Part shown: positions 6,853 through 55,685 of the stretch, piece by piece
Layout: every line of letters begins with the position of its first letter
How positions within the stretch are numbered: position 1 is the first letter of the stretch
DNA from: Desulfovibrionales bacterium
GTDB taxonomy: Bacteria; Desulfobacterota; QYQD01
Length of the DNA: 64,000 nucleotides
NCBI GenBank assembly: GCA_028715605.1
Contig: JAQURM010000005.1
Coordinates: 1-64,000 of the forward strand
Direction of reading: 5' to 3'
Program-made: the position numbers and the translations under genes
The notes under the pieces: generated by a model
What the model saw: the letters and a program-made list of their open reading frames with translations, nothing else
The model's database searches: none
Told to the model about the DNA's origin: nothing

Positions 6853-7497
6853 TCAACTGCCCAATATGCTCACTATCTTATTAAAGATATCGTCGATACT
6901 GCCTATCCCTGGGATAGATTTTAATATGCCCTTTTTCTGGTAATAATTAATAAGGGGCTTTGTCTGGGCGTCATAGACCTCCAGCCTGGACATTACCGTG
7001 CTCTCGGTATCATCGTCCCGCTGATAGAGTTCGCCCCCGCACTTATCACACACGTCTTTGTTAAGCGAAGGTTTAAAAATAGCATGATACATAGCTCCGC
7101 ACTTGCGACAGGTGCGTCGCCCGGTCAGTCTCTTTACAAGTTCCTTGTTATCTACCTCTATACTAACAACATTGTCAATCTTGGACCCCATCCCGGCCAG
7201 AGCCTTGTCCAGGGCCTCAGCCTGCGCCACTGTGCGGGGAAAACCATCCAGGATATATCCTTTTTTACAATCATCCCGCTTTAATCTTTCCTCTACCAAT
7301 CCAATAACAATTTTATCAGGCACCAGTTGGCCTTTGTCCATATACTCTTTGGCCTTCATACCCAGTGGTGTCTTGTCTTTCAATGCCGCGCGAAACATAT
7401 CGCCGGTAGATATCTGCGGAACAGCATATTTCTCAATCAGCATTTTGGCCTGCGTTCCTTTGCCGGCCCCCGGTGGTCCCAAAAATATAATATTCAT
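6853..7497 (-). CDS. adk: Adenylate kinase
   Basis: A 214-residue long-form adenylate kinase (AMP + ATP = 2 ADP). It has P-loop GPPGAGKGTQ at 7-16, the AMP-binding segment TGDMFRAAL, DGFPRT at 84-89, and a LID domain whose four Cys (C130, C133, C150, C153) form the structural zinc site found in many bacteria. It lies between secY and map as in many spc operons; the secY-adk gap is widened by a heptad repeat element. Confidence 0.97.
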   Translation of the reverse strand: MNIIFLGPPGAGKGTQAKMLIEKYAVPQISTGDMFRAALKDKTPLGMKAKEYMDKGQLVPDKIVIGLVEERLKRDDCKKGYILDGFPRTVAQAEALDKALAGMGSKIDNVVSIEVDNKELVKRLTGRRTCRKCGAMYHAIFKPSLNKDVCDKCGGELYQRDDDTESTVMSRLEVYDAQTKPLINYYQKKGILKSIPGIGSIDDIFNKIVSILGS

Positions 7498-7574
7498 GGC
7501 CTCTCTCTTTTATCAGCAACGTTATATAATTTATTGTAACAAGTTAGCGCTCTTAAAAATGCGCTAAATCTCAT

Positions 7575-7665
7575 TGCAAAATAGAAAATGCAACATGGAA
7601 AATGTAAAATTTCGGACAAAAACCGTCAACATTTTGAATTTTGCACTTTGAATCTTGCATTTTAA
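7575..7665. repeat. Heptad inverted element, word TGNAAAA
   Basis: Left arm 7575-7609 is five contiguous 7-nt units of form TGNAAAA (one starts TA). Right arm 7631-7665 is five contiguous 7-nt units of form ATNTTGN. The arms are complementary when inverted. It lies between secY and adk inside a transcribed operon. Confidence 0.8.
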
Positions 7666-7669
7666 TTTC

Positions 7670-8977
7670 CTACCTGCGCCCTTTAACTCGTCCTGATTTC
7701 AAAAATCCTTCGTAATGTCTGGCTACCATATGCGTCTCCATCTGGGCTATGGTGTCCATAGCCACGCCTACCACAATCAGTAAGGCCGTCCCCCCGAAAT
7801 AAAACGGCACATTAAACTGGGCTATAAGTATAGAGGGAAGGACACAGACAGTCGACACATAAAAGGCCCCGATAAGAGTTACTCTGGAAAGCACGCGGTC
7901 GATAAATTCAGACGTCTTCTTGCCTGGCCGGATACCAGGTATATATCCTCCGTGCTTTTTCATATTCTCGGCCACATCAACCGGGTTAAAGACAACAGCC
8001 GTGTAAAAATAGCAAAAGAAAATAATAAAGCCGACATAAAGGATCTCATGGGAAATACTCCCTGGCGACAGAAGTTGAGACACTTTTTGTACCCAGGGGA
8101 TATTGATAAAATTAGCTATAGTAGCCGGAAACATAATTATGGATGAGGCAAAAATAGGTGGAATAACACCCGCCGTATTTATTTTTAACGGCAAATGCGT
8201 GCTCTGACCGCCGTACATTTTCCGTCCCACCACCCGCTTTGCATATTGCACCGGGATCCTGCGCTGGCCACGCTCCATAAATATGATAACTCCCACTACT
8301 GCTACCATCAAAGCAATTAAGAATAGTACAGATACAGCGCCGAGAGCGCCGGTCCCCATAAGGCGGAAGGTATTGATAATTGCCGAAGGCAGCCTGGCTA
8401 CAATACCCGCAAATATGATCAGAGATATGCCATTACCGATACCCCTCTCTGTAATCTTCTCCCCCAACCACATAATGAAGGCCGTACCGGAGGTCAACGT
8501 AATAACCGCCATTAACCGAAATCCCCATCCCGGAGAAATCACCACGGCCTCACCGGCCGGCCCGGTCATACTTTCCAGACCTATGCTGATCCCAAGTCCT
8601 TGTATAATGCTTAAGACTACCGTCCCGTAGCGCGTATATTGGGTTATCTTTTTCCGGCCGGCCTCTCCCTCTTTGGAAAGCCTTTCCAGATGCGGGATAA
8701 CCACTGTTAACAATTGTAAGATAATCGAAGCGCTGATATAGGGCATAATACCCAGGGCAAAGATTGAAAACTTTTCCAGCGCTCCACCGGAGAACATGTC
8801 AAAGAGGCCAAAGAGCGTCCCCTGCTTTGCCGCAAAAAAGGCAGCCAGCGCCTCGGTATTAATACCCGGAGTAGGTATCTGTGCCCCAATCCGGAAAACG
8901 GCCAGCATCATCAGCGTAAAAAATATACGCTTCCTGAGTTCTGCGATTCCCGCTATATTTTGAAAACCGCCCAGCAC
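7670..8977 (-). CDS. secY: Protein translocase subunit SecY
   Basis: A 435-residue polytopic membrane protein with ten predicted transmembrane segments and family signatures [21 protein letters not shown] at TM1, the TM2 region [20 protein letters not shown], and the cytosolic loop [15 protein letters not shown]. It forms the SecYEG protein-conducting channel with SecE (encoded at 34.4 kb). It directly abuts rplO, ordinary for the spc operon. Confidence 0.97.
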
Positions 8978-9427
8978 TTAACCTATAACCTCAATCGCTC
9001 CACCTGCCGATTCAATCTTCTGACGGGCGATCTCGCTAATCCTATGGGCGCAAACAGTGAAAGGCCTTTGCACCTCGCCCATGCCCAATACCTTTACCAG
9101 TGCATCCCGATTTTTTATCAGTCCTGCCTTTTTCATCTCTTCCAGGCCGATTACGCTGATATCCCCGCACCTGGCCAGGTCACGAAGGTTAATGATAGTA
9201 AAATCTTTTCGGAAAATATTCCTAAAGCCTCGTTTGGGCAAGCGCCGCTGAAGAGGCATCTGCCCGCCTTCAAATCCGGGAGAAACACCTCCCCCCGATC
9301 GCGCTTTCTGTCCCTTTGCGCCCCGACAGGCCGTCTTCCCGTGGCCGGAACCCTCTCCACGCCCGACACGTTTTCTCTTTCTCTTTGAGCCGGAGGAGGG
9401 CTTAAGCTCATGTAAAGTCGTCATCAT
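8978..9427 (-). CDS. rplO: 50S ribosomal protein L15
   Basis: A 149-residue L15. The N-terminal Gly/Arg-rich extension (KRVGRGEGSGHGKTACRGAKG) threads into 23S rRNA and GFEGGQMPLQRRLPKRGF is the family signature. Its stop is adjacent to the secY start. MMTTLHELKP is the start region; two adjacent ATG codons make the exact start uncertain by one residue. Confidence 0.96.
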   Translation of the reverse strand: MMTTLHELKPSSGSKRKRKRVGRGEGSGHGKTACRGAKGQKARSGGGVSPGFEGGQMPLQRRLPKRGFRNIFRKDFTIINLRDLARCGDISVIGLEEMKKAGLIKNRDALVKVLGMGEVQRPFTVCAHRISEIARQKIESAGGAIEVIG

Positions 9428-9607
9428 CTACTCCTGTACCTCAACTAAATGGATAACCTTACGGATCATTCCTCGAATCTCCGGTGTGTCCTTGCGCACC
9501 ACCGTCTTGCCGGTTCTGGTCAAACCAAGCCCGTGTAACACCAAACGCTGAGACCCGGGCCGCCCGATAGCGCTCTTCTTTAAGGTTATTTTAATAGCCT
9601 TGTCCAT
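9428..9607 (-). CDS. rpmD: 50S ribosomal protein L30
   Basis: A 59-residue L30 (MDKAIKITLKKSAIGRPGSQ, then LGLTRTGKTVVRKDTPEIRGMI). I place the start at the ATG at 9607, preceded by GGAAGGGAAG. An upstream in-frame GTG at 9622 would add five residues that contain this ribosome site. Usual spc order rpsE-rpmD-rplO. Confidence 0.94.
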   Translation of the reverse strand: MDKAIKITLKKSAIGRPGSQRLVLHGLGLTRTGKTVVRKDTPEIRGMIRKVIHLVEVQE

Positions 9608-9632
9608 CTTCCCTTCCTGCACAAAAATTTAT

Positions 9633-10142
9633 CTAGGCTGTAATTCCTTCAATCGCCTTGCCCCGGCGTTTAGCTACGCTTTCAGGATTACGCAATAAGC
9701 TCAACCCGTTTAAGGTAGCCTTAACCACATTATGCGGGTTATTCGATCCCAAACACTTTGTCAGTATATTTTGTATCCCGGCGACCTCGACTACCGCTCT
9801 TACCGCGCCGCCGGCAATGACCCCGGTCCCCTCTGACGCCGGCATCAGCACGACACGGCCTGCGCCATATTCCCCGGTAATCTCATGGGGGATGGTCTTG
9901 TTTAACAAAGGCACTAATATCATATTTTTTTTGGCCTTCTCCACGGCCTTGCTTATAGCCACCGGCACTTCCTTAGCCTTGCCGAGACCGTAGCCGACCC
10001 TGCCCTGTCCATCGCCAACCACAACAATGGCCGCAAAGCCAAACCGCCTTCCGCCCTTGACCACTTTGGCGACACGGTTTATATGGACCACTTTGTCTAT
10101 TAATTTAAACTGAGATTCCAATCCCGATTCTTTGTCTAACAA
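9633..10142 (-). CDS. rpsE: 30S ribosomal protein S5
   Basis: A 169-residue S5 involved in decoding fidelity, with a double-stranded RNA-binding-like N-terminal domain ([21 protein letters not shown]) and the second domain containing [19 protein letters not shown]. The start codon is TTG (10142), preceded by GGGGAGGGG. Upstream rplR ends 15 bases away. Confidence 0.96.
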
Positions 10143-10157
10143 CGATGCCCCTCCCCT

Positions 10158-10529
10158 TTAAAAATCCAGCCCGCCTTCTCTGGCTCCATTCGACAGGGCC
10201 TTGACTCTACCATGATAAAGAAACCCGCAACGGTCAAACACTACCTTTTTGATACCCTTGGCTAATGCCTTGGCCGCAATCAACTTCCCTACTTCCAGGG
10301 CCACATTCACTTTCCCTTCAAGTTTATCCTTTTTTTCACGGATCTCCTTGCTGAGCGTGGAAGCAGATACCAGTGATATGCCCATCTCATCATTTATAAT
10401 CTGGGCATATATATGCTTAGCGGTGCGGAACACGGTCAACCGAGGTCTTTCACTGGTACCGGCGATCTTCGCACGTATCCTCTTTTTTCTCTTTAATCTC
10501 ATCTCTTGTTTTAAGTTACATACTGCCAT
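10158..10529 (-). CDS. rplR: 50S ribosomal protein L18
   Basis: A 123-residue L18, a 5S rRNA-binding protein. [22 protein letters not shown] and [19 protein letters not shown] are diagnostic. A gap of 197 bases, holding an 8-nt-period inverted repeat, separates it from rplF upstream, unusual within the spc operon. Confidence 0.96.
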
Positions 10530-10580
10530 AGAAACACCTTCCGGGGTGAACTTAATTCGCTCCGCTCACAATTGGGGGTA

Positions 10581-10655
10581 ATGGAACGATGGGAAAACGG
10601 AAAAATGGGATTAAAAATGGCCTCTTTTACACCATTCCAACATTCCATCTTTCCT
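10581..10655. repeat. Inverted element with 8-nt word
   Basis: Left arm 10581-10612 is four 8-nt units of form ATGGNANN. Right arm 10632-10655 is three 8-nt units of form NCATTCCA, the complement inverted. It fills the rplF-rplR gap. Same architecture as the 7-nt elements elsewhere in the window. Confidence 0.7.
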
Positions 10656-10726
10656 TGTCTCGGGCTTGAATCCAGGCCAGCAAAGCCCCACTATTTCCAT
10701 CAGTTATACAAATTTCAAACGCTCAG

Positions 10727-11272
10727 TTACTTCTTGCCGGTCTTCCCGGCTTTTTTGCGGATAACCTCATCCGCATAACGGATGCCTTTGCCTTTGTAAG
10801 GCTCCGGCGGCCTTAGCCGCCTGATACGGTCGCAAATCAGACCCAGAAGCTCTTTATCTATGCCTTCCAGGGTTAATCTGGTCTGTTTCTCAACCTTGGC
10901 CGATATATTCTCGGGCAAGGCAAAATTAACCGGATGAGAATAACCCAGATTAAATACGAGATGATTTCCCTGCAACTCTACCCGGTATCCCACCCCTATA
11001 AGATCCATAACTTTACTAAATCCGGCGCTTACGCCCGTGACCATATTAGCCACCAGGGCGCGGGTCAACCCGCCCAAGGCATTTGTGGCCGGGGAGTCAT
11101 CTCTTTTCTTTATTAAAATCTGTCCATCTTCAACCGCTATATTTACAACCGGATTAATAGGCCTGCTTAGACTGCCCCTGCGGCCGCGCACCGTAATTAT
11201 GTCATCCGCCAGTTCTACATGGACATCTTTGGGTATAGGAATTGGCTTCTTGCCAATCCGCGACATCGACAT
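10727..11272 (-). CDS. rplF: 50S ribosomal protein L6
   Basis: A 181-residue L6 with two repeated alpha/beta domains. MSMSRIGKKPIPIP opens and PEPYKGKGIRYADEVIRKKAGK is the C-terminal signature near the sarcin-ricin loop. The first of two ATGs is chosen because GGAGG lies six bases before it. Confidence 0.96.
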   Translation of the reverse strand: MSMSRIGKKPIPIPKDVHVELADDIITVRGRRGSLSRPINPVVNIAVEDGQILIKKRDDSPATNALGGLTRALVANMVTGVSAGFSKVMDLIGVGYRVELQGNHLVFNLGYSHPVNFALPENISAKVEKQTRLTLEGIDKELLGLICDRIRRLRPPEPYKGKGIRYADEVIRKKAGKTGKK

Positions 11273-46963: not shown

Positions 46964-47016
46964 ATATCCGCTACCTCTTTTACAACCTAACCAAGATACC
47001 TGTAAAATCAAAATTA

Positions 47017-47088
47017 CCGCAGAGAACGCCGAGATAACATATTGAATAATTTACAGTTTTTCTCTGCGGACTCTGCGTGCTCAGCGGT
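47017..47088. repeat. Inverted element with 9-nt word CGCAGAGAN
   Basis: Two 9-nt units (CCGCAGAGA, ACGCCGAGA) at 47017-47034 face three units of form CTCTGCGNN at 47062-47088. It fills the gap between two convergent hypothetical genes. Confidence 0.7.
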
Positions 47089-47130
47089 GAAAAGTCTTTT
47101 TTACGAATTGATCAAACAAAGATACGCAAC

Positions 47131-47655: not shown

Positions 47656-47714
47656 ACCATTCCTTCCTATCGCCTATATAGCCTCAAGTAGGATAACGGC
47701 CCTGTTAATATAAC

Positions 47715-48392
47715 CTACCTAATAAACCTAAAAGTACGAAGCATCTGGTTATAAGTCAGTTGATGCCCCTCTGCTTCGGCATCATTGGGATTACTGCCGG
47801 TGAAACTGAGGTAATAGATATATCCATTATAAGGCAACACGATGTCAATGCCCTCGTGGTCAAACCCGAATATGGAAAGCCTTTGAGCTGGTATTCCATC
47901 CAGAGTCGTATCAAACACTTCCTGAATCAAACTACCTCCAGTTACGTCCTGGGGTTCATGTTTGCTAATCCATTCTTCCAGACTCAGCTGATCCGGGTTT
48001 GACAGGACCCGTATCTGAAATTCTCCTGGCCAATCTATGTATTCCTTCTCTAGAAAAGTTACCTTCTGTAACTCTCCCTCGAAGAGGGCATTCCCCGTCC
48101 ATGTGGCCTTGGCGCCTACCCTTGGTTGAGCCTCTATTACTTCCCAGCCTTCCGGACACTTAATTTCATAGCCGTATTTTTCATTTCTATAGGTTTTCCA
48201 GCCGGTCATTTGGTTGAGCGGCATAGCCGCTCTCTCCCCTTGTAATTGGGGAGTCTGCCCTAGGATACTTTTGGCGTTTTCAATCGCAGCCGCAGTTTTT
48301 ACCCACCATAAGGGTTCTAGAAACAGCAGAAAGCTAATAACCCAAAGCCAAGGGGAATACAGGACATGTTCGCTTTCGTGGAGAACCTTCAT
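47715..48392 (-). CDS. Hypothetical exported or membrane-anchored protein
   Basis: A 225-residue protein with an N-terminal hydrophobic segment (about 13-37, PWLWVISFLLFLEPLWWVKTAAA) acting as signal or anchor. The remainder contains GWKTYRNEKYGYEIKCPEGWEV, typical of PsbP-like or DUF-type periplasmic beta folds in many bacteria, and a C-terminal QMLRTFRFI that often ends such domains. No catalytic residues are apparent. It lies at the border of the SIR2 module, transcribed in the same direction. Confidence 0.55.
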   Translation of the reverse strand: MKVLHESEHVLYSPWLWVISFLLFLEPLWWVKTAAAIENAKSILGQTPQLQGERAAMPLNQMTGWKTYRNEKYGYEIKCPEGWEVIEAQPRVGAKATWTGNALFEGELQKVTFLEKEYIDWPGEFQIRVLSNPDQLSLEEWISKHEPQDVTGGSLIQEVFDTTLDGIPAQRLSIFGFDHEGIDIVLPYNGYIYYLSFTGSNPNDAEAEGHQLTYNQMLRTFRFIR

Positions 48393-48496
48393 AGCAGTTT
48401 TGTAACCTTATACCTCATACTGGATGCCAAAGGGTTTCAACCTCGCCAATCTTGGCATAACCTCCGATATTTCGTAAACGCACCCGCACGTCAAGC

Positions 48497-48513
48497 ACGT
48501 TCCGCACGAACGT
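48497..48513. promoter_or_regulatory. 17-bp palindrome downstream of the SIR2 module
   Basis: ACGTTC-CGCAC-GAACGT, a perfect 6-bp inverted repeat with a 5-nt spacer, starting 18 bases beyond the stop of the 948-residue gene. Near-identical sites lie at 52412 and 52529. Confidence 0.6.
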
Positions 48514-48530
48514 TAGCTTCCCTCTGGGGC

Positions 48531-51377
48531 TCACGTTATATTACCCCGTTCTGTCAATTGCTTAAATAGCTTGACCATACCAGGAAGTTTGATGCGGTCG
48601 GTATAACGTAGAGCATCATCTATTCTGCCATTCTTTGCCAATTTGATCAGCAGTTTCTCCAGCCGATCTTCATAATCGAAGTCCGGCTCATATCCATCGA
48701 GAACCTTTCCCAACACAAGGCTAATTCTTGCAGGATCTTGCTCGACCAAGCGATCGAGTTCTTCAATAAAAGTGTCGGCGTTATATTCAACGTTTACATA
48801 CGGCGCCACAGCTAACAACAGTTTGATTTCTTTATCTGAAAGTGTCGTTACATAACAGATCAATAGGCTCAACCTCGATAGAAGTGATTTTGGAGGCTCG
48901 GTCAAAGCTTCTGCCCAGGTCACACATTTTTCCCAAAAAAGGAGGATCCGGTCGATTTGTTCTTTCGTCAATTTCTGTCGTCTTGCGCTGGAGAAGAACC
49001 CAATTGCATCCTGAAGATCCTCATTCTGGCCGGGCTCGAACAGATAAGATAAGCGAGGAGAATCCAACGATTCATCCCTCCAGAGATACGCAAGTGCAAC
49101 CCTTTCAATGAGTTTTTCGCGAGCTTGCCGCCGAGTTGGTTCTAAACGCAACGCCCTGTCCAGGACTCCATGCTCAAGTAACAGCTTATAGATCAAGTGA
49201 GACGCTGAGGCATACGCCAGCCCCTCTATGGCACATACAAAATTGGTTCGAAAGTCTTTTGGGAACATTCTGTCAATACTTGCCTTTAGCCATTGAGGGT
49301 TAATGTAATCGATATTTGCGAGATAGGCCGCAGCCAAAGTGGAAAATTCGTAATTGGCGTTCTCACATTTTGCCAGTTCTGAATCAAAGACTGGCTTGAT
49401 AACCTCCCAAACCCCAGTATGGTATCCCCGCTCTTTGTCGCTGATACGGCATACCCTGAGCGTATGACTGAAAAGTGCTTCAATCGCCTTACCCTTGGGT
49501 GAGTTGATGGCTTGGAACATGGCATCTTCCTTCGCATCATCAACTGCTTTCAATTTTTCTAGTAGTATTTTTACTAACGAAAATGCACTGGAGAGAAGGT
49601 CTGGTGAATAGGCATTATTATCATCCCTCGTACCAGCACGAAGAAATTCAGCAATTACTGGCGGAATCCAGTTGCGGGTAGGAGTCAAATCATGATCATC
49701 GACGACTTCTTCCGCCCAGAAATCAGTATCATCGAGTAGCTGCTCGAAGAAATGGATCAATCGCTCCCATGCTACGTTCCAGTCAAGATCCTGCCGTGTA
49801 TCCTTAGGCATATCCCAGAGACGTTTAAAACCATTAATAATACCATACTGATATGGCCGTTTGGCCTCGAGGAATGCTGGTAGGAGGTCAAGAAATATAC
49901 GGGGATTGATCCCCACAATCTCCTCAAGCGTATCGACAAGAGCTTTCGTAGATGGAGTAGATGGGCCTGACCAATCACTGGATTGCTGAAAATCATTCAA
50001 TCTTTTGATCAAACTGCCCTCTTCTGCAAACGCAAGCAATTCTTGTATGGTATATGGTGAAGGGCCAGGACCCCACCATGTCTCCATATAGGAGTGAAAA
50101 TCAGGATGCTTTGACAACTTGCCTATGCTCTGGTCAGCTTCGAGTTCCTTGAACCAGCTATCAGCCGGTTCATATCCCTTGCCTGCAATTGCTGATAACC
50201 AGTTTCGCTGAGTGCGCCTCAGGAATCTGTCCCGATCTTCATGATTCGGTAGTGGTGACAACTGGCGAATCGCTTCAAGAGTGGCGGTTTTGTCTGGCTC
50301 ACTGAACTCGGAAAATCTCTCTTTGAGTAACTGGTAGAGTTCATGGATATTTCTTGAATCAAAGAGTTGAGAACTAACTATCCTATTATAGAGGTTTTTC
50401 AACACCGACCATCGTTGGCCGAGGACATAGATGGCGATCCGACGCACCATCTCGTTTTCATCTCTAAGGATCTCTTCAATGAAGGGCGCGGCACCCTCTG
50501 GCTCCTCTTCAACCCAAGACAATAATACATCCCGAAGACCTTCAACCATAGCATTGACAACTTTGTCCCATGAATGGTTCTGCGGATGATCCTCAACGGC
50601 GGGCCAGCTCAAATATGTCGGAAGGTCACCAAATTCTTCGCCAAAGACTTTGCGAATCCTGTCGCAGAATATCTGAGCTGCTTCCCTCCCTGCTCTAACG
50701 CCGAAGGTACTTGCATGGTGCCTGATCAGTTCCTTCAGCCAGTAATCCTTAACAACTGACACCGGCTTCTTGCGCCCTTTACCAAGGCCTTTTTCCTCGG
50801 CCCAAAGAATAGCCGTACAATAATCAAGTATTGTAATAGCTTTCTTCCAATCGCCAGGCGTATCGCTCGCGAGCCACCGCCTTAGTGCTCCCAGATCAAG
50901 CGCATGTCCAACCACGCCTCGGTCGTATTTGCTGCTCAGCCAGACCGGGATGAGACGGAGATCCTCTGTAGTAATTGCAGCAGTTGGTACAAGACCGAGA
51001 ATTTCGGCAAATTTACGATAGGTGTGATAGTTGTCACGACTTCTACCATCGGGGTCACGATAGCTACTTACGGAACGAATGACGTCCATCACCTTCTGTG
51101 CTAACTGGATCTCATTGTTGTCCCCAGCCTGCTTTGCAACTGCCTCCAAGTAGTCCAGCGCACTCCAATAGGGGATTCGCACATGCCCAGGATCTTCGGC
51201 TGGAACCGGGCCAGAATTATACTCTGGAGAGAAAAGGTTAGCATCTCTTAGATGATCAAAGAAGTCAGCGAAATCCTGACGCTTGAGTAGAATCTCAAAG
51301 CCCCACTTCGCTTGTTCTTGATTCTCAGTCATGCGATTGATAAACAACTTTTGCTTTGTCGATAATACTGGACTCAC
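48531..51377 (-). CDS. Large unrecognised partner of the SIR2 protein
   Basis: A 948-residue protein, not recognised with certainty. It is predicted mostly helical, with many Trp/Leu/Glu-rich helix pairs across its length (RWLASDTPGDWKKAITILDY, EEILRDENEMVRRIAIYVLGQRW), suggesting HEAT-like repeats. No ATPase P-loop, nuclease or transmembrane segment is seen. Its start overlaps the SIR2 gene stop by 4 bases, so the two are made together. By analogy with SIR2-containing defence systems it may be the sensor that recognises phage infection; this is inference. A DUF4020-like identity is worth testing. Confidence 0.6.
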   Translation of the reverse strand: MSPVLSTKQKLFINRMTENQEQAKWGFEILLKRQDFADFFDHLRDANLFSPEYNSGPVPAEDPGHVRIPYWSALDYLEAVAKQAGDNNEIQLAQKVMDVIRSVSSYRDPDGRSRDNYHTYRKFAEILGLVPTAAITTEDLRLIPVWLSSKYDRGVVGHALDLGALRRWLASDTPGDWKKAITILDYCTAILWAEEKGLGKGRKKPVSVVKDYWLKELIRHHASTFGVRAGREAAQIFCDRIRKVFGEEFGDLPTYLSWPAVEDHPQNHSWDKVVNAMVEGLRDVLLSWVEEEPEGAAPFIEEILRDENEMVRRIAIYVLGQRWSVLKNLYNRIVSSQLFDSRNIHELYQLLKERFSEFSEPDKTATLEAIRQLSPLPNHEDRDRFLRRTQRNWLSAIAGKGYEPADSWFKELEADQSIGKLSKHPDFHSYMETWWGPGPSPYTIQELLAFAEEGSLIKRLNDFQQSSDWSGPSTPSTKALVDTLEEIVGINPRIFLDLLPAFLEAKRPYQYGIINGFKRLWDMPKDTRQDLDWNVAWERLIHFFEQLLDDTDFWAEEVVDDHDLTPTRNWIPPVIAEFLRAGTRDDNNAYSPDLLSSAFSLVKILLEKLKAVDDAKEDAMFQAINSPKGKAIEALFSHTLRVCRISDKERGYHTGVWEVIKPVFDSELAKCENANYEFSTLAAAYLANIDYINPQWLKASIDRMFPKDFRTNFVCAIEGLAYASASHLIYKLLLEHGVLDRALRLEPTRRQAREKLIERVALAYLWRDESLDSPRLSYLFEPGQNEDLQDAIGFFSSARRQKLTKEQIDRILLFWEKCVTWAEALTEPPKSLLSRLSLLICYVTTLSDKEIKLLLAVAPYVNVEYNADTFIEELDRLVEQDPARISLVLGKVLDGYEPDFDYEDRLEKLLIKLAKNGRIDDALRYTDRIKLPGMVKLFKQLTERGNIT

Positions 51378-52357
51378 GATAGTAGCTCCTCCATTTCGAG
51401 GCGCTTTGGCAAACTCAACGGCGGACCAGGAGGAATTTTCCGGGCAAGGTAGTCAATGACTTCAACCAGTTGATCCCAATCGCGCTCGTCGCGCGAGAAT
51501 GGAAGCAACCCGATCCCGAATTGATGAAAATAGCTTTCCAAACTCCGTGCAAGCTCTAACTCGTGAGTGAAAAAACCTTGCAAGACGTAGTGTCTTGGCT
51601 CCTCATTGTTTTCTGGCAGCCTCTCGAGACCTTTCTCAACTATGTACTCGAGAACTTCCAACTCGTTGAGGCCGTAACCGATGAATAAAACATTCTTCAA
51701 CCGGAAAAGTGTCTGAAGAAATGTCAGGAAAGGATTCTCATGATTCTCTCTTCCGTCAATTCGATGACTTGAATAGCGATCGAGGTAGTCGACCGTCGTC
51801 AGCACCATGCTCTCACGATCACGGATAGAACCATGGATGTGGAACACGGCATTCGGGACATCCAAGTTCTCGACAGAGATATCGTTGCGCTTGTAGAAAG
51901 GATAGCGAGATGTGTTTTGTGGATTTAATTGAGAAGGAGACTCATCAGCACGAAAAGGCGTCGGCGTATTTTGGTCCAGCCACTCATCGTAATTAGTAGT
52001 AACAAACGTGGTCGCAAGTTTAGAGAGATTCGCATAGACCTCGTCCCCAATTTTTTTCTTAGCCATAGACGACGGTTCGAGCAATTTCTTGAATTCGATG
52101 GGAAGTTGCTTTTCTAATTCAAGGGCAACAGACAACTTCACACGAGAGGAAAGGGAAGAGATCTGGTCCAGTTGGGCATGACTCAACTTCCCTTTATCAA
52201 CGAAGAACTTGAGGGCGGCATCTGCAAACTCGTTCCAATTTGGGCAGCCTCCGAGTTGCGAAACCCCTGCGCCAATAAACGGAATGAGCTTCCTCTGGAG
52301 CGCTGCGAGGCGGAGTGCCTCTGGAATCTTTGGGAGGGGTTCGATCTTCTCTATCAC
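51374..52357 (-). CDS. SIR2-domain protein (putative NADase effector)
   Basis: A 327-residue protein whose body is a SIR2-like Rossmann domain: IPFIGAGVSQLGG (GAGVS 29-33) binds NAD phosphates, TTNYD (120-124) and HIHGS (H173, H175) match the NAD-binding and catalytic positions, and FIGYGLNELEV (GYG 227-229) closes the fold. Short SIR2_2-type domains like this act in several antiphage systems by depleting NAD. Only about 80 residues follow the core, so sensing must lie elsewhere, presumably in the overlapping 948-residue protein. An extended -10 promoter sits 120 bases upstream. Confidence 0.85.
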   Translation of the reverse strand: MIEKIEPLPKIPEALRLAALQRKLIPFIGAGVSQLGGCPNWNEFADAALKFFVDKGKLSHAQLDQISSLSSRVKLSVALELEKQLPIEFKKLLEPSSMAKKKIGDEVYANLSKLATTFVTTNYDEWLDQNTPTPFRADESPSQLNPQNTSRYPFYKRNDISVENLDVPNAVFHIHGSIRDRESMVLTTVDYLDRYSSHRIDGRENHENPFLTFLQTLFRLKNVLFIGYGLNELEVLEYIVEKGLERLPENNEEPRHYVLQGFFTHELELARSLESYFHQFGIGLLPFSRDERDWDQLVEVIDYLARKIPPGPPLSLPKRLEMEELLS

Positions 52358-52411
52358 GCTTGTGCCTCAATCAAAAAGATCCCTCTGAACGCGTGGAAAC
52401 GTGGAAACGGG

Positions 52412-52428
52412 ACGTTCATGCAGAACGT
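52412..52428. promoter_or_regulatory. 17-bp palindrome in SIR2 leader
   Basis: ACGTTC-ATGCA-GAACGT, perfect 6-bp arms. It lies in the predicted 5' untranslated part of the SIR2 transcript, on the opposite side of the promoter from the site at 52529. Confidence 0.55.
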
Positions 52429-52477
52429 GCATAACATATTTAATATGTATGGATTTTATTTTAAGTTGTTATCATCT

Positions 52478-52486
52478 ATTATAACA
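52478..52486 (-). promoter_or_regulatory. Extended -10 promoter of the SIR2 operon
   Basis: On the minus strand TGTTATAAT (extended -10) occurs in an A/T-rich region, with only a weak -35 (TTGTAT, 19 bases upstream). Transcription would start near 52471. The two palindromes lie at nearly equal distance on either side. Confidence 0.5.
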
Positions 52487-52528
52487 TATACCCCTTTGAA
52501 GCATACAAAAAATTAAAGGAATCTCAGC

Positions 52529-52545
52529 ACGTTCCGCACGAGCGT
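52529..52545. promoter_or_regulatory. 17-bp palindrome upstream of SIR2 promoter
   Basis: ACGTTC-CGCAC-GAGCGT; one mismatch from a perfect palindrome and 19 of 20 bases (52526-52545) identical to 48494-48513 in the same orientation. Confidence 0.55.
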
Positions 52546-52559
52546 CCGGTGGTCTTTGC

Positions 52560-52703
52560 CTATTTACAGAATAATTTTGGGATACCGGGGTGCGTTCCAT
52601 GGCAACCACAACAATTTATTGTGCCATCAGGATTTAGATATTTTGCCGGCACGTTAACCTCAGGTGGAACAGGAGTCAGATACCTCCTTCTATTTGCCTG
52701 TTC
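52560..52703 (-). pseudogene. Possible relic with CxxCH motif
   Basis: A frame without start reads about 46 residues to a TAG stop, with YLTPVPPEVNVPAKYLNPDG followed by TINCCGCHGTHPG and KLFCK. CCGCH fits a c-type haem-binding CXXCH motif and the composition looks protein-like. No ATG, GTG or TTG lies near the AAGGAGG upstream, and an in-frame TGA precedes it, so it is a fragment at best. Confidence 0.25.
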
Positions 52704-52894
52704 CGCTCAAACCGACCACTAATCGGAGTAGGCAGAGTTGGTTATAATGTATTTATAAATCATACGGACTGGTTGGAGTCAAGGAGAAATGCAGTCCTTT
52801 CATCGTGCGCCATTTGTTGCCCGTATATGTTGTTCACTAACCTGACCTCTCTTGCTTTTACCCCTGTGATATTGTACCTTTCATCCTGAGAAGA

Positions 52895-52922
52895 GCTGAA
52901 AGCTGAACGGTAAATGCTGATG
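52895..52922. repeat. Heptad units over the addB start
   Basis: Four contiguous 7-nt units of form GCTGANN (third unit degenerate) cover the addB start codon at 52914. No second arm is visible. Confidence 0.5.
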
Positions 52923-55685
52923 CAAACGGGCTACTTAACCGCTCGTACCACCCAAGAACTACAGGCTAAAATCATAGAAAAGGCCGACGAGGAGACTCTA
53001 ATCCTCACCCCGGGTCGCCGTCTGGCACGTCGGCTCCGCCATGCCTTCCGTATGGCCCAAATTGAACAGGGTCGGCGGGCCTGGTTACCACCAAAGATAG
53101 TAACCCTGAATTCCTGGTTAAACGAGACATGGCTTGAATCCTGGCCGGAGGAATGTATTGTTTCGGATATAGCACGCCTTTGTCTCTGGAAAGAAGCGGT
53201 TGAGGAAACAGCCCTGCCCGAAGACCTGGAATCTGACATTGGACTATATCGGCTTCTTGATGAGACCTACTCTGCAATCATCCGCCATAAGATACCGCCA
53301 CTATCCAGGGATTATCTCTCTCCCCTTATTGAATGGCGGCAGAAGGTCATGGAAATTTTCGAAGGCCGCCTGAGGACAAAAGGCTGCGTCCACCCGGCCT
53401 TTTTGCCTGCTCTTATAAAAGATAAATTAAAGGACGGTAGCCGTGCCCTGCCTGAGCAAATTCTATGCGCCGGCTTTGCATCTCCGGCGCCGGTCGAAAA
53501 CGACCTCCTGACCAGCCTGGCTAAAGACCATGGGGCTGTAATCTGCTCCACAGAATCAAACGAACCACCCTGCATAAAGGCCGTGAGCCTCTCGGACGTG
53601 GAGCAAGAGGTCATGTGGCTGGCCCAGGATGTACTGAAAAAGGCACAGGACACGCCGTTGCACCGGATCGGGGTAGTCGTACCCAACATGAGCGCCTACG
53701 CGCCTCTTCTATCCCGGGTATTCCAGGAGTTGGTCGGCAGCCCCACTGCCGAAAAAGGTGAAATATTCATGCCCCAAGAAGGCACAAAGAACAACGGAGA
53801 TAATCCCCCCTTCCCCCCCTTTAGTAAAGGGGGGGAAGGGGGGAATTACAATATCTCCCTCGGAGAATCACTCTTCAGCCAACCCCTGACCCAGGCTGCC
53901 CTCTTACCCTTACGCCTTATGCTCGATGGTGAAAAACGAGTTTCATTTCTTTCCCTGCTGCTTTCACCCTACTATGGCCTCTGGGACCGCCACCGGAATA
54001 TCCTTGCCCAAGCGGACCGTGTCTGGCGCGAATACTCTATCGATCAGGGTCTCGGTGATCTACTGTATATCCTGCAAAAAAAGAGGCCGGAAATCTTATC
54101 AGTTATCCACCCCCCCGGCCATGACCTGGCCCGCCTTATTCAAAGTCTCACGGGGAAACGAACAGGAGCCGGGTGGATTGAAACGCTTTACCGCCTGTGG
54201 GATATAACGCAATTCCCGGCTATAAATAACGAAGATGAAGAAAGGGTATTCCGGCACCTCCAGGAAAATCTGGCCGCACTGGCCTGCGACCTGGGAGAGG
54301 AGAAAATAGACGCCTATACCTTTTATGCGTGGCTTAAATATGCCCTCGAGGAGACTAAAGTCAATGTCCCCGGATACGAAGAAGCAGGTATCCAGGTCAT
54401 TGGTCTCATCGAGTCCCGCGGCCTGTCTTTTGATCATCTCTATGTAGTTGGCCTTTCAGCCGGAAGCCTCCCCCAACCGGTACGCCACTTTCCTTTGCTC
54501 ACCAGAGAAGAGAAAGGTCTGGTACAGGGGGCTACAATTGAGAGTCAGCATCTGTTTGCTGAGCAGGCCTTCGCCCATTTGATGACGGCGGCCCCGGCCA
54601 TCACCCTCACCCGCCCTTTGGAAGAAAAAAGCGATCCCCTGCCTGCATCTCCTTTCTGGCCGGAAGGTGAAGAAAATGCCGCGGTTAACTACTGGCTGGA
54701 GCCGGGGCAGGCCTCTCTGCGGGCCGGATGGTTACGCCAGGCCCACGAAGGCTGGCGGGACCACCCGATCCCCTACCCGACTGAAGATACGCCGTTTGTA
54801 CCGGCGCCCCTTCCGGATGAACTGTCAGTGACTGCTATAGAAAAAGCCATATCCTGCCCCTTTAAGTTTTTTGCCGATACCGTATTGCGGCTAAGTGAGC
54901 TTCCGGAACCAGCTATCGGTATCTCACCACAGGAAAAAGGGAACAGACTGCACCGGCTCTTTGCCCTGTTCACAGGCCGGATGCGGAAGCAGGCTGTCTC
55001 CCCTACCGACGCAGGACAAAGTGAATCCATACTGAAAGAGTGTATAACTGAGGTGCTGGCCGGCGTCACAGATAATCCATACTGGCAGATTGAAAGGGAA
55101 CGCTGGTCAGGACTACTGGCCACCTGGCTCTGCCTGGAAAGAAAGCGGAAAGAGGAAGGCTGGCGCTGGCTCCTCGAAGAGGCCAATTTTTCGAGCCTGC
55201 AAAACGCCCCCTGGCCATTTACTGTCCATGGCCGCATCGACCGGATAGATATAAACGATGGGGAGCACAAGATATGTTGCTGGGACTATAAGACCGGCAG
55301 CGCCCCTCCGCCCGCAGATATACATACCCACTTTCTCTCCCCTCAGCTCCCCTTGTATCTTCTGGCCCTCCGAAGTGGAAAGATTTCCCTGCCGGTTTCA
55401 TTTCAAAACTTGACGGCCGGGTATATCAGCCTGAAATCTGAGGGAGAAGTCCAGTTCGGTGAACCGGTCAAAGACGAAGCGGGTTGGGAGACCTGCCTTT
55501 CCGCCTGGGAAAAAGAGATCACCCGTCTCGGCCAACGGCTTAGCGCCGGTAACTTCCCGGCTGATCCCAAACCAATACCTAAAGGCAACAGGAACGGGGC
55601 CTGCCAGTACTGCCTTTACCTGACGCTTTGCACTTATTGGAAAAAAGAGGAAGAAAACGGTGAGGTAACCGATTGCCATGTCTAG
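52914..55685 (+). CDS. addB: AddB-type helicase-nuclease subunit
   Basis: A 923-residue AddB-like protein for processing double-strand ends. The N-terminal half is an inactivated helicase region (LILTPGRRLARRLRHAFR instead of a P-loop). The C-terminus is an iron-sulfur PD-(D/E)XK nuclease: C648, then GRIDRID (D776, D779), WDYKTG (D791, K793) and C897, C900, C906. Residues 297-311 (NPPFPPFSKGGEGGN) come from a GC-rich palindrome inserted in frame. The start lies in repeat sequence without clear ribosome site (ATG 52914 or 52920). It overlaps addA by 8 bases. Confidence 0.88.
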   Translation: MLMQTGYLTARTTQELQAKIIEKADEETLILTPGRRLARRLRHAFRMAQIEQGRRAWLPPKIVTLNSWLNETWLESWPEECIVSDIARLCLWKEAVEETALPEDLESDIGLYRLLDETYSAIIRHKIPPLSRDYLSPLIEWRQKVMEIFEGRLRTKGCVHPAFLPALIKDKLKDGSRALPEQILCAGFASPAPVENDLLTSLAKDHGAVICSTESNEPPCIKAVSLSDVEQEVMWLAQDVLKKAQDTPLHRIGVVVPNMSAYAPLLSRVFQELVGSPTAEKGEIFMPQEGTKNNGDNPPFPPFSKGGEGGNYNISLGESLFSQPLTQAALLPLRLMLDGEKRVSFLSLLLSPYYGLWDRHRNILAQADRVWREYSIDQGLGDLLYILQKKRPEILSVIHPPGHDLARLIQSLTGKRTGAGWIETLYRLWDITQFPAINNEDEERVFRHLQENLAALACDLGEEKIDAYTFYAWLKYALEETKVNVPGYEEAGIQVIGLIESRGLSFDHLYVVGLSAGSLPQPVRHFPLLTREEKGLVQGATIESQHLFAEQAFAHLMTAAPAITLTRPLEEKSDPLPASPFWPEGEENAAVNYWLEPGQASLRAGWLRQAHEGWRDHPIPYPTEDTPFVPAPLPDELSVTAIEKAISCPFKFFADTVLRLSELPEPAIGISPQEKGNRLHRLFALFTGRMRKQAVSPTDAGQSESILKECITEVLAGVTDNPYWQIERERWSGLLATWLCLERKRKEEGWRWLLEEANFSSLQNAPWPFTVHGRIDRIDINDGEHKICCWDYKTGSAPPPADIHTHFLSPQLPLYLLALRSGKISLPVSFQNLTAGYISLKSEGEVQFGEPVKDEAGWETCLSAWEKEITRLGQRLSAGNFPADPKPIPKGNRNGACQYCLYLTLCTYWKKEEENGEVTDCHV
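53802..53847. repeat. GC-rich palindrome inside addB
   Basis: A near-perfect inverted repeat: AATCCCCCCTTCCCCCCC, AGTA at the centre, then the complement ending GGGGGGAATT. The same CCCCC-TTT-AAA-GGGGG type occurs outside genes at about 59220-59275. Its reading frame here encodes a Pro/Phe then Gly-rich peptide. Confidence 0.8.

Follow-up and report, generated by a model that had tools for sequence, protein, structure and literature searches.

A DSR1-like SIR2 system, probably antiphage, encoded as two overlapping genes in a Desulfovibrionales bacterium

DSR1 has been described as a single-gene system (PMC10973363): a SIR2 NADase and a large helical C-terminal region form one polypeptide. It has been treated as a single-gene entity, and its activation is poorly understood. 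More is known about DSR2, in which the catalytic pair is N133/H171, recognition of the phage tail tube falls to the C-terminal domain, and the isolated SIR2 domain is monomeric and inactive, activation opening the NAD+ pocket (PMC10973363). Nezha (SIR2-HerA) is a two-gene SIR2 system that needs its partner, a HerA ATPase/helicase, and the SIR2 domain is found also in Thoeris ThsA and in KomC. No published account of a two-gene DSR1 was found in the open-access literature.

The stretch of DNA analysed here, referred to as the window, comprises 64,000 nucleotides of a Desulfovibrionales contig (JAQURM010000005.1). Two open reading frames with a four-nucleotide overlap, both on the minus strand and both with a GTG start, lie at 48531-52357, exactly where the preliminary description had placed them. 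The upstream gene (51374-52357) encodes a 327-aa SIR2-domain protein, the predicted NADase effector, with N122 and H175 as its putative catalytic residues. The downstream gene (48531-51377) encodes a 948-aa all-helical protein, which would represent the C-terminal sensor/scaffold of DSR1 as a separate subunit. The overlap reads GTGA (51374-51377, minus strand): the stop codon TGA of the SIR2 gene and the start codon GTG of the helical gene are written in shared letters, an arrangement that makes translational coupling of the two genes probable. A Shine-Dalgarno-like GGAGG stretch, ATGGAGGAGCTACTATCGTGA, precedes the helical start at approximately 51380-51392 on the same strand and is also kept in the three closest relatives (loci L003, L004 and L005). 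The short 5' leader and start of the SIR2 gene (TCTTTTTGATT..GGCACAA.., 52352-52380, minus strand) resemble at the DNA level those of L005 only, and promoter prediction for the module returned no candidate above shuffled sequence.

The preliminary description recognized a SIR2 module of two genes, probably an antiphage system, whose helical partner is not an ATPase, and this part stands; the same description regarded the partner as impossible to match with certainty and listed DSR, with its fused long C-terminus, among the other systems. This second part has to be revised, as the helical partner corresponds to the C-terminal half of DSR1. The PADLOC search that had been suggested proved informative: a single Dsr1 model (PDLC04166, 1227 positions) covers both genes in register, with the SIR2 protein aligned to positions 4-278 (177.9 bits) and the helical protein to 313-1204 (351.4 bits). 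Fused Dsr1 references were collected with an independent NCBIfam model, NF041818 (L078 with 1962 bits, above the cut-off; L088 and L089 weaker). Comparison of the SIR2 family profile (A1) with their N-termini gave 99.5% (E 1.2e-22), and comparison of the helical family profile (A3) with the fused proteins (A4) gave 99% over 635 columns (hhalign, E 3.9e-18). Because the Dsr1 model spans both genes and the profile comparison with fused Dsr1 agrees, the pair is identified, by homology, as a DSR1-like system split over two genes. This assignment rests first on PDLC04166, which matches TIR-fused proteins too. Moreover, the pair scores 13.7 and 24.4 bits with NF041818, far below its equivalog cut-off of 1400 bits, and should therefore be considered a split and only remotely related form of DSR1 rather than a typical member. 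Annotators should be aware that PDLC04166 responds to the helical region whether it is linked to TIR, PIN or SIR2; a match alone is therefore no proof of a SIR2 effector.

Comparison with the other systems sharpens this picture. DSR2 also combines SIR2 with an all-helical sensor and probably follows the same logic, but there the two are fused and the helical parts have no detectable sequence kinship: profile A3 found no DSR2 match in the PDB at E values up to 10. The pair resembles Nezha in being a two-gene SIR2 system, whereas its partner contains no Walker A motif and no domain of the HerA, STAND (Avs) P-loop or Argonaute kind. ThsA and KomC share the SIR2 motifs and the catalytic histidine, but the locus features neither a SLOG domain nor a nucleotide-signal partner: SIR2_2 is the only domain in the SIR2 protein, no TIR gene is present in the module, and the partner is a DSR1-type solenoid.

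Several observations indicate that the split is real and not an artefact. The close relatives, located in three deltaproteobacterial genomes, are 73-76% identical in the helical protein and 82-84% in the SIR2 protein, and display the identical gene pair and order with a four-nucleotide overlap at the matching place (GTGA in L003 and L004, ATGA in L005). DNA similarity to L003 extends from 52356, in the SIR2 start codon, to 48545, 14 bases short of the helical end; similarity to L004 likewise begins at 52356 and that to L005 at 52380, 24 bases further upstream. As the similarity is confined to the two genes, they appear to travel as a unit. The dN/dS values between the window and its relatives, 0.11-0.18 for the SIR2 gene and 0.17-0.25 for the helical gene, indicate purifying selection on both. 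More distant split pairs were encountered in six further genomes (G030, G054, G085, G208, G220 and G313), and a 25% identical one with an 8-nt overlap resides on a Vibrio coralliilyticus plasmid (L055). The conserved overlap, the limited similarity, the purifying selection and the further split relatives together argue that the two-gene state is genuine. When PDLC04166 was run over 395 genomes of the phylum (E limit 1e-20), the helical-clade relatives whose N-terminus was examined included no SIR2 fusion. The fused Dsr1 references fall on a separate branch from this helical clade in a 22-protein tree, in which the deep branches are long and the placement of DSR1 is uncertain. Viral contigs and phage records yielded no relatives. 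In a betaproteobacterial locus (L006, 7602-9011), an open reading frame joins a cupin-like N-terminus to the last third of the helical protein beside AbiEii-like genes; it looks like a remnant.

The SIR2 protein contains a SIR2_2 domain (Pfam, 69.6 bits against a cut-off of 24.5), and its family profile matches the structures of ThsA, KomC and DSR2 with E values from 3e-27 to 4e-18. The NAD-binding motifs are intact, as had been noted: GAGVS (29-33), TTNYD (120-124) and HG (175-176). Across 12 aligned homologues G29, G31, S33, T120, T121, D124, H175 and G176 are invariant, N122 is nearly so, and position 173 varies. In the alignment with KomC, H175 falls on H146, a residue that appears as N in the chain of the H146N mutant. 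As H175 is invariant, position 173 variable and the alignment with KomC H146 concordant, the catalytic histidine is predicted to be H175 of the HG motif; H173, the residue originally proposed for mutation, is the wrong one. An AlphaFold model of this protein, built from four near-identical sequences, reached a pLDDT of 40.9 and was set aside. The same genome encodes a second SIR2_2 protein in an open frame of 414 aa (G000:C8:44781-45260).

The helical protein has no Pfam domain above cut-off, no Walker A motif by regular expression and no HNH- or HD-type motif, and the AlphaFold2 model is all-helical with moderate confidence (pLDDT 65.9, pTM 0.40), in keeping with the earlier view of a large helical partner devoid of P-loop and nuclease motifs. 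The model is based on four close sequences and supports an all-helical solenoid and little beyond. A PD-(D/E)xK-like pattern at residue 592 is a single loose match and was judged to be due to chance. Of the two resemblances suggested for examination, DUF4020 is absent from the protein according to Pfam and was detected in one fused DSR relative (L089), and the HEAT-repeat likeness holds in a generic sense: Foldseek retrieved HEAT-type solenoids alone, with low TM-scores and with DSR2 absent from the rows shown, and neither Foldseek nor Pfam pointed to anything more specific. Approximately 58 positions are conserved across the family, for example D618, N625 and G629; conservation is even, with a peak at 601-640 and no hypervariable patch.

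The helical region is also linked to other effectors (Pfam, BLAST). Three relatives (L042, L030 and L043) have the same helical module and an NADase-type effector and are matched by the PADLOC Dsr1 model, but they are fused and carry a TIR domain in place of SIR2. A PIN domain stands at the N-terminus of L053, and an unnamed helical domain occupies this position in L041 and L051 and is a separate gene in L050. Two proteins of one genus are particularly instructive: L052, with a split SIR2, and L051, fused to the unnamed domain, have helical regions that are sisters on short branches in the 22-protein tree, with 80% identity across 927 residues and, in DNA, 85% across 2.7 kb, the similarity beginning near the effector junction. 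On this tree the SIR2-split label must change at least four times. The helical protein is thus a portable module around which effectors are exchanged: as its relatives bear other killing domains, it resembles a reusable alarm with interchangeable weapons. That nearly the same helical protein is coupled to SIR2 in one species and to a different domain in its congener points to a general sensor. A broader proposition, whose chances are judged about even, is that the helical region of DSR1 is a mobile infection sensor in its own right, a separate subunit with interchangeable effectors (SIR2, TIR, PIN or the unnamed helical domain); fusion would then be one state and DSR1 one member of a modular defence family, and one sensor clade may recognize the same phage trigger whatever its effector. 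The unnamed domain, common to L050, L051, L041 and L054, spans about 200 aa, contains an AHR-like motif and has no Pfam match; it could be a HEPN-like effector or else an adaptor. At L043 a SIR2 gene (10335-11201) is followed by the TIR-helical fusion (6982-10302), two NADase-type domains in one apparent operon.

The chromosomal setting is that of a variable site. Between conserved flanks, the stretch 47671-52835, which also contains a 225-aa open reading frame (47715-48392, minus strand), is missing or replaced in sister species, as seen by blastn against G001 and G002 (both sides) and G003 (on two contigs). G001 harbours instead a 1.3-kb stretch with a 237-aa open reading frame; G002 has a C5-cytosine methyltransferase (294.8 bits) together with a Vsr endonuclease and an ATPase of the OLD/AriA-like type; and in G003, where left and right flank fall on separate contigs, the same right flank is adjoined by an HNH nuclease and a DNA methyltransferase. 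The Dsr1 model has no match in the four congeners G001-G004. Homologues in housekeeping contexts, which would have spoken against an antiphage candidate, were looked for: the neighbours vary and are often defence genes. The pair adjoins Gabija in L005, SIR2-HerA in the Vibrio L055, an HKD/SNF2 helicase and a type IIG-like enzyme in L003 and a type I restriction-modification system in L004; among the other relatives, L046 adjoins a DrmMI/IIG-like gene and L043 an AriA/OLD-like gene. Since the same site holds restriction-modification genes in sister species and the relatives adjoin defence genes, genomic context supports a role of the pair in antiphage defence.

Taken with good confidence, the locus is a DSR1-like antiphage system in the form of two genes, probably coupled in translation, one for a predicted SIR2 NAD+ hydrolase and one for an alpha-solenoid that would act as infection sensor and assembly scaffold. 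The SIR2 and helical subunits would probably associate in an inactive resting complex. Upon infection, the 948-aa solenoid may bind a phage component, a reasonable guess by analogy with DSR2 being a structural protein such as a tail protein; binding would rearrange the SIR2 subunits and open the NAD+ pocket, and the ensuing loss of NAD+ would halt phage production, with an abortive outcome of the infection. On the precedent of DSR2, it is likely that the solenoid senses infection and licenses NAD+ hydrolysis by the SIR2 subunit. With effector and sensor naturally on separate genes, each can be expressed, purified and mutated on its own, so that the question whether the solenoid restrains SIR2 or activates it is open to direct test.

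Other explanations have to be weighed against this one. The pair might behave like a toxin-antitoxin couple, the SIR2 protein being a constitutive NADase and the helical protein chiefly an inhibitor, released when a phage destroys or titrates it. The overlapping two-gene operon and the greater variability of the helical member are compatible with such an arrangement, but the isolated SIR2 domain of DSR2 is inactive (PMC10973363), and a releasable inhibitor fits the fused relatives less well: as SIR2 and helical region form one chain in DSR1, a dissociating inhibitor is improbable, and this explanation is considered unlikely. Still less credit is given to a two-enzyme system, in which the helical subunit would itself be catalytic and SIR2 would make its signal or act jointly with it. 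The size of the helical protein and its many conserved positions could be taken in this sense; however, no known enzymatic motif or domain is present, and exchange of the module between enzymatic effectors is what a sensor would be expected to show.

Two further readings are hardly credible. Since the PADLOC model describes a single protein, the pair could be imagined as a fused DSR1 gene broken by a frameshift, either a pseudogene or an assembly error; yet three other genomes have the overlap at the same place, together with matching start codons and the GGAGG, the dN/dS values are well below 1, and many diverged split relatives exist, that on the Vibrio plasmid included. The frameshift was rejected on the conserved overlap and the low dN/dS. 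A housekeeping sirtuin, a deacetylase with its scaffold, has scarcely more than the SIR2 fold in its favour: the protein belongs to the SIR2_2 family, its nearest solved relatives are defence NADases, its occurrence is patchy, with four congeners lacking a match to the Dsr1 model, its neighbours are often defence genes, and a syntenic housekeeping context across a genus was not seen.

The edges of the module are marked by repeats. A 20-bp palindromic interspersed repeat lies at the downstream edge of the module (48494-48513, plus strand), a second copy, identical at 19 of 20 positions, at the upstream edge (52526-52545, plus strand), and a third, inverted copy (52412-52431, minus strand) some 55 bp ahead of the start codon of the SIR2 gene. 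This palindrome of 19-20 bp, GCACGTTCYGCAYGARCGT, is likewise found at the borders of the restriction cargo of G002 and G003. Each genome in the genus contains six to eight copies with at most two mismatches, scattered in different contexts, and a reversed control contained none; a longer form of about 110 bp recurs elsewhere in G001. Two sister species (G001:C1:12959-13078 and G002:C56:10655-10771) have, at the right-hand edge of the variable site, an open reading frame that resembles the N-terminal 39 residues of an integron-type integrase, and the genome of the window encodes a full integron integrase (376.8 bits) on a different contig (G000:C4:185504-186439). An integron was considered as an explanation of the flanking repeats, but no cassette array came to light. 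Outside the site, a perfect 20-nt inverted repeat (TCCCCCCTTCCCCCCC..) at 53804-53844 lies inside a 923-aa open reading frame (52914-55685), where it is translated in frame as PPFPPFSKGG; it is interspersed and missing at this place in G003 and G004. Another interspersed repeat, of about 100 bp, is located at about 47004-47117 and occurs in many copies per genome of the genus.
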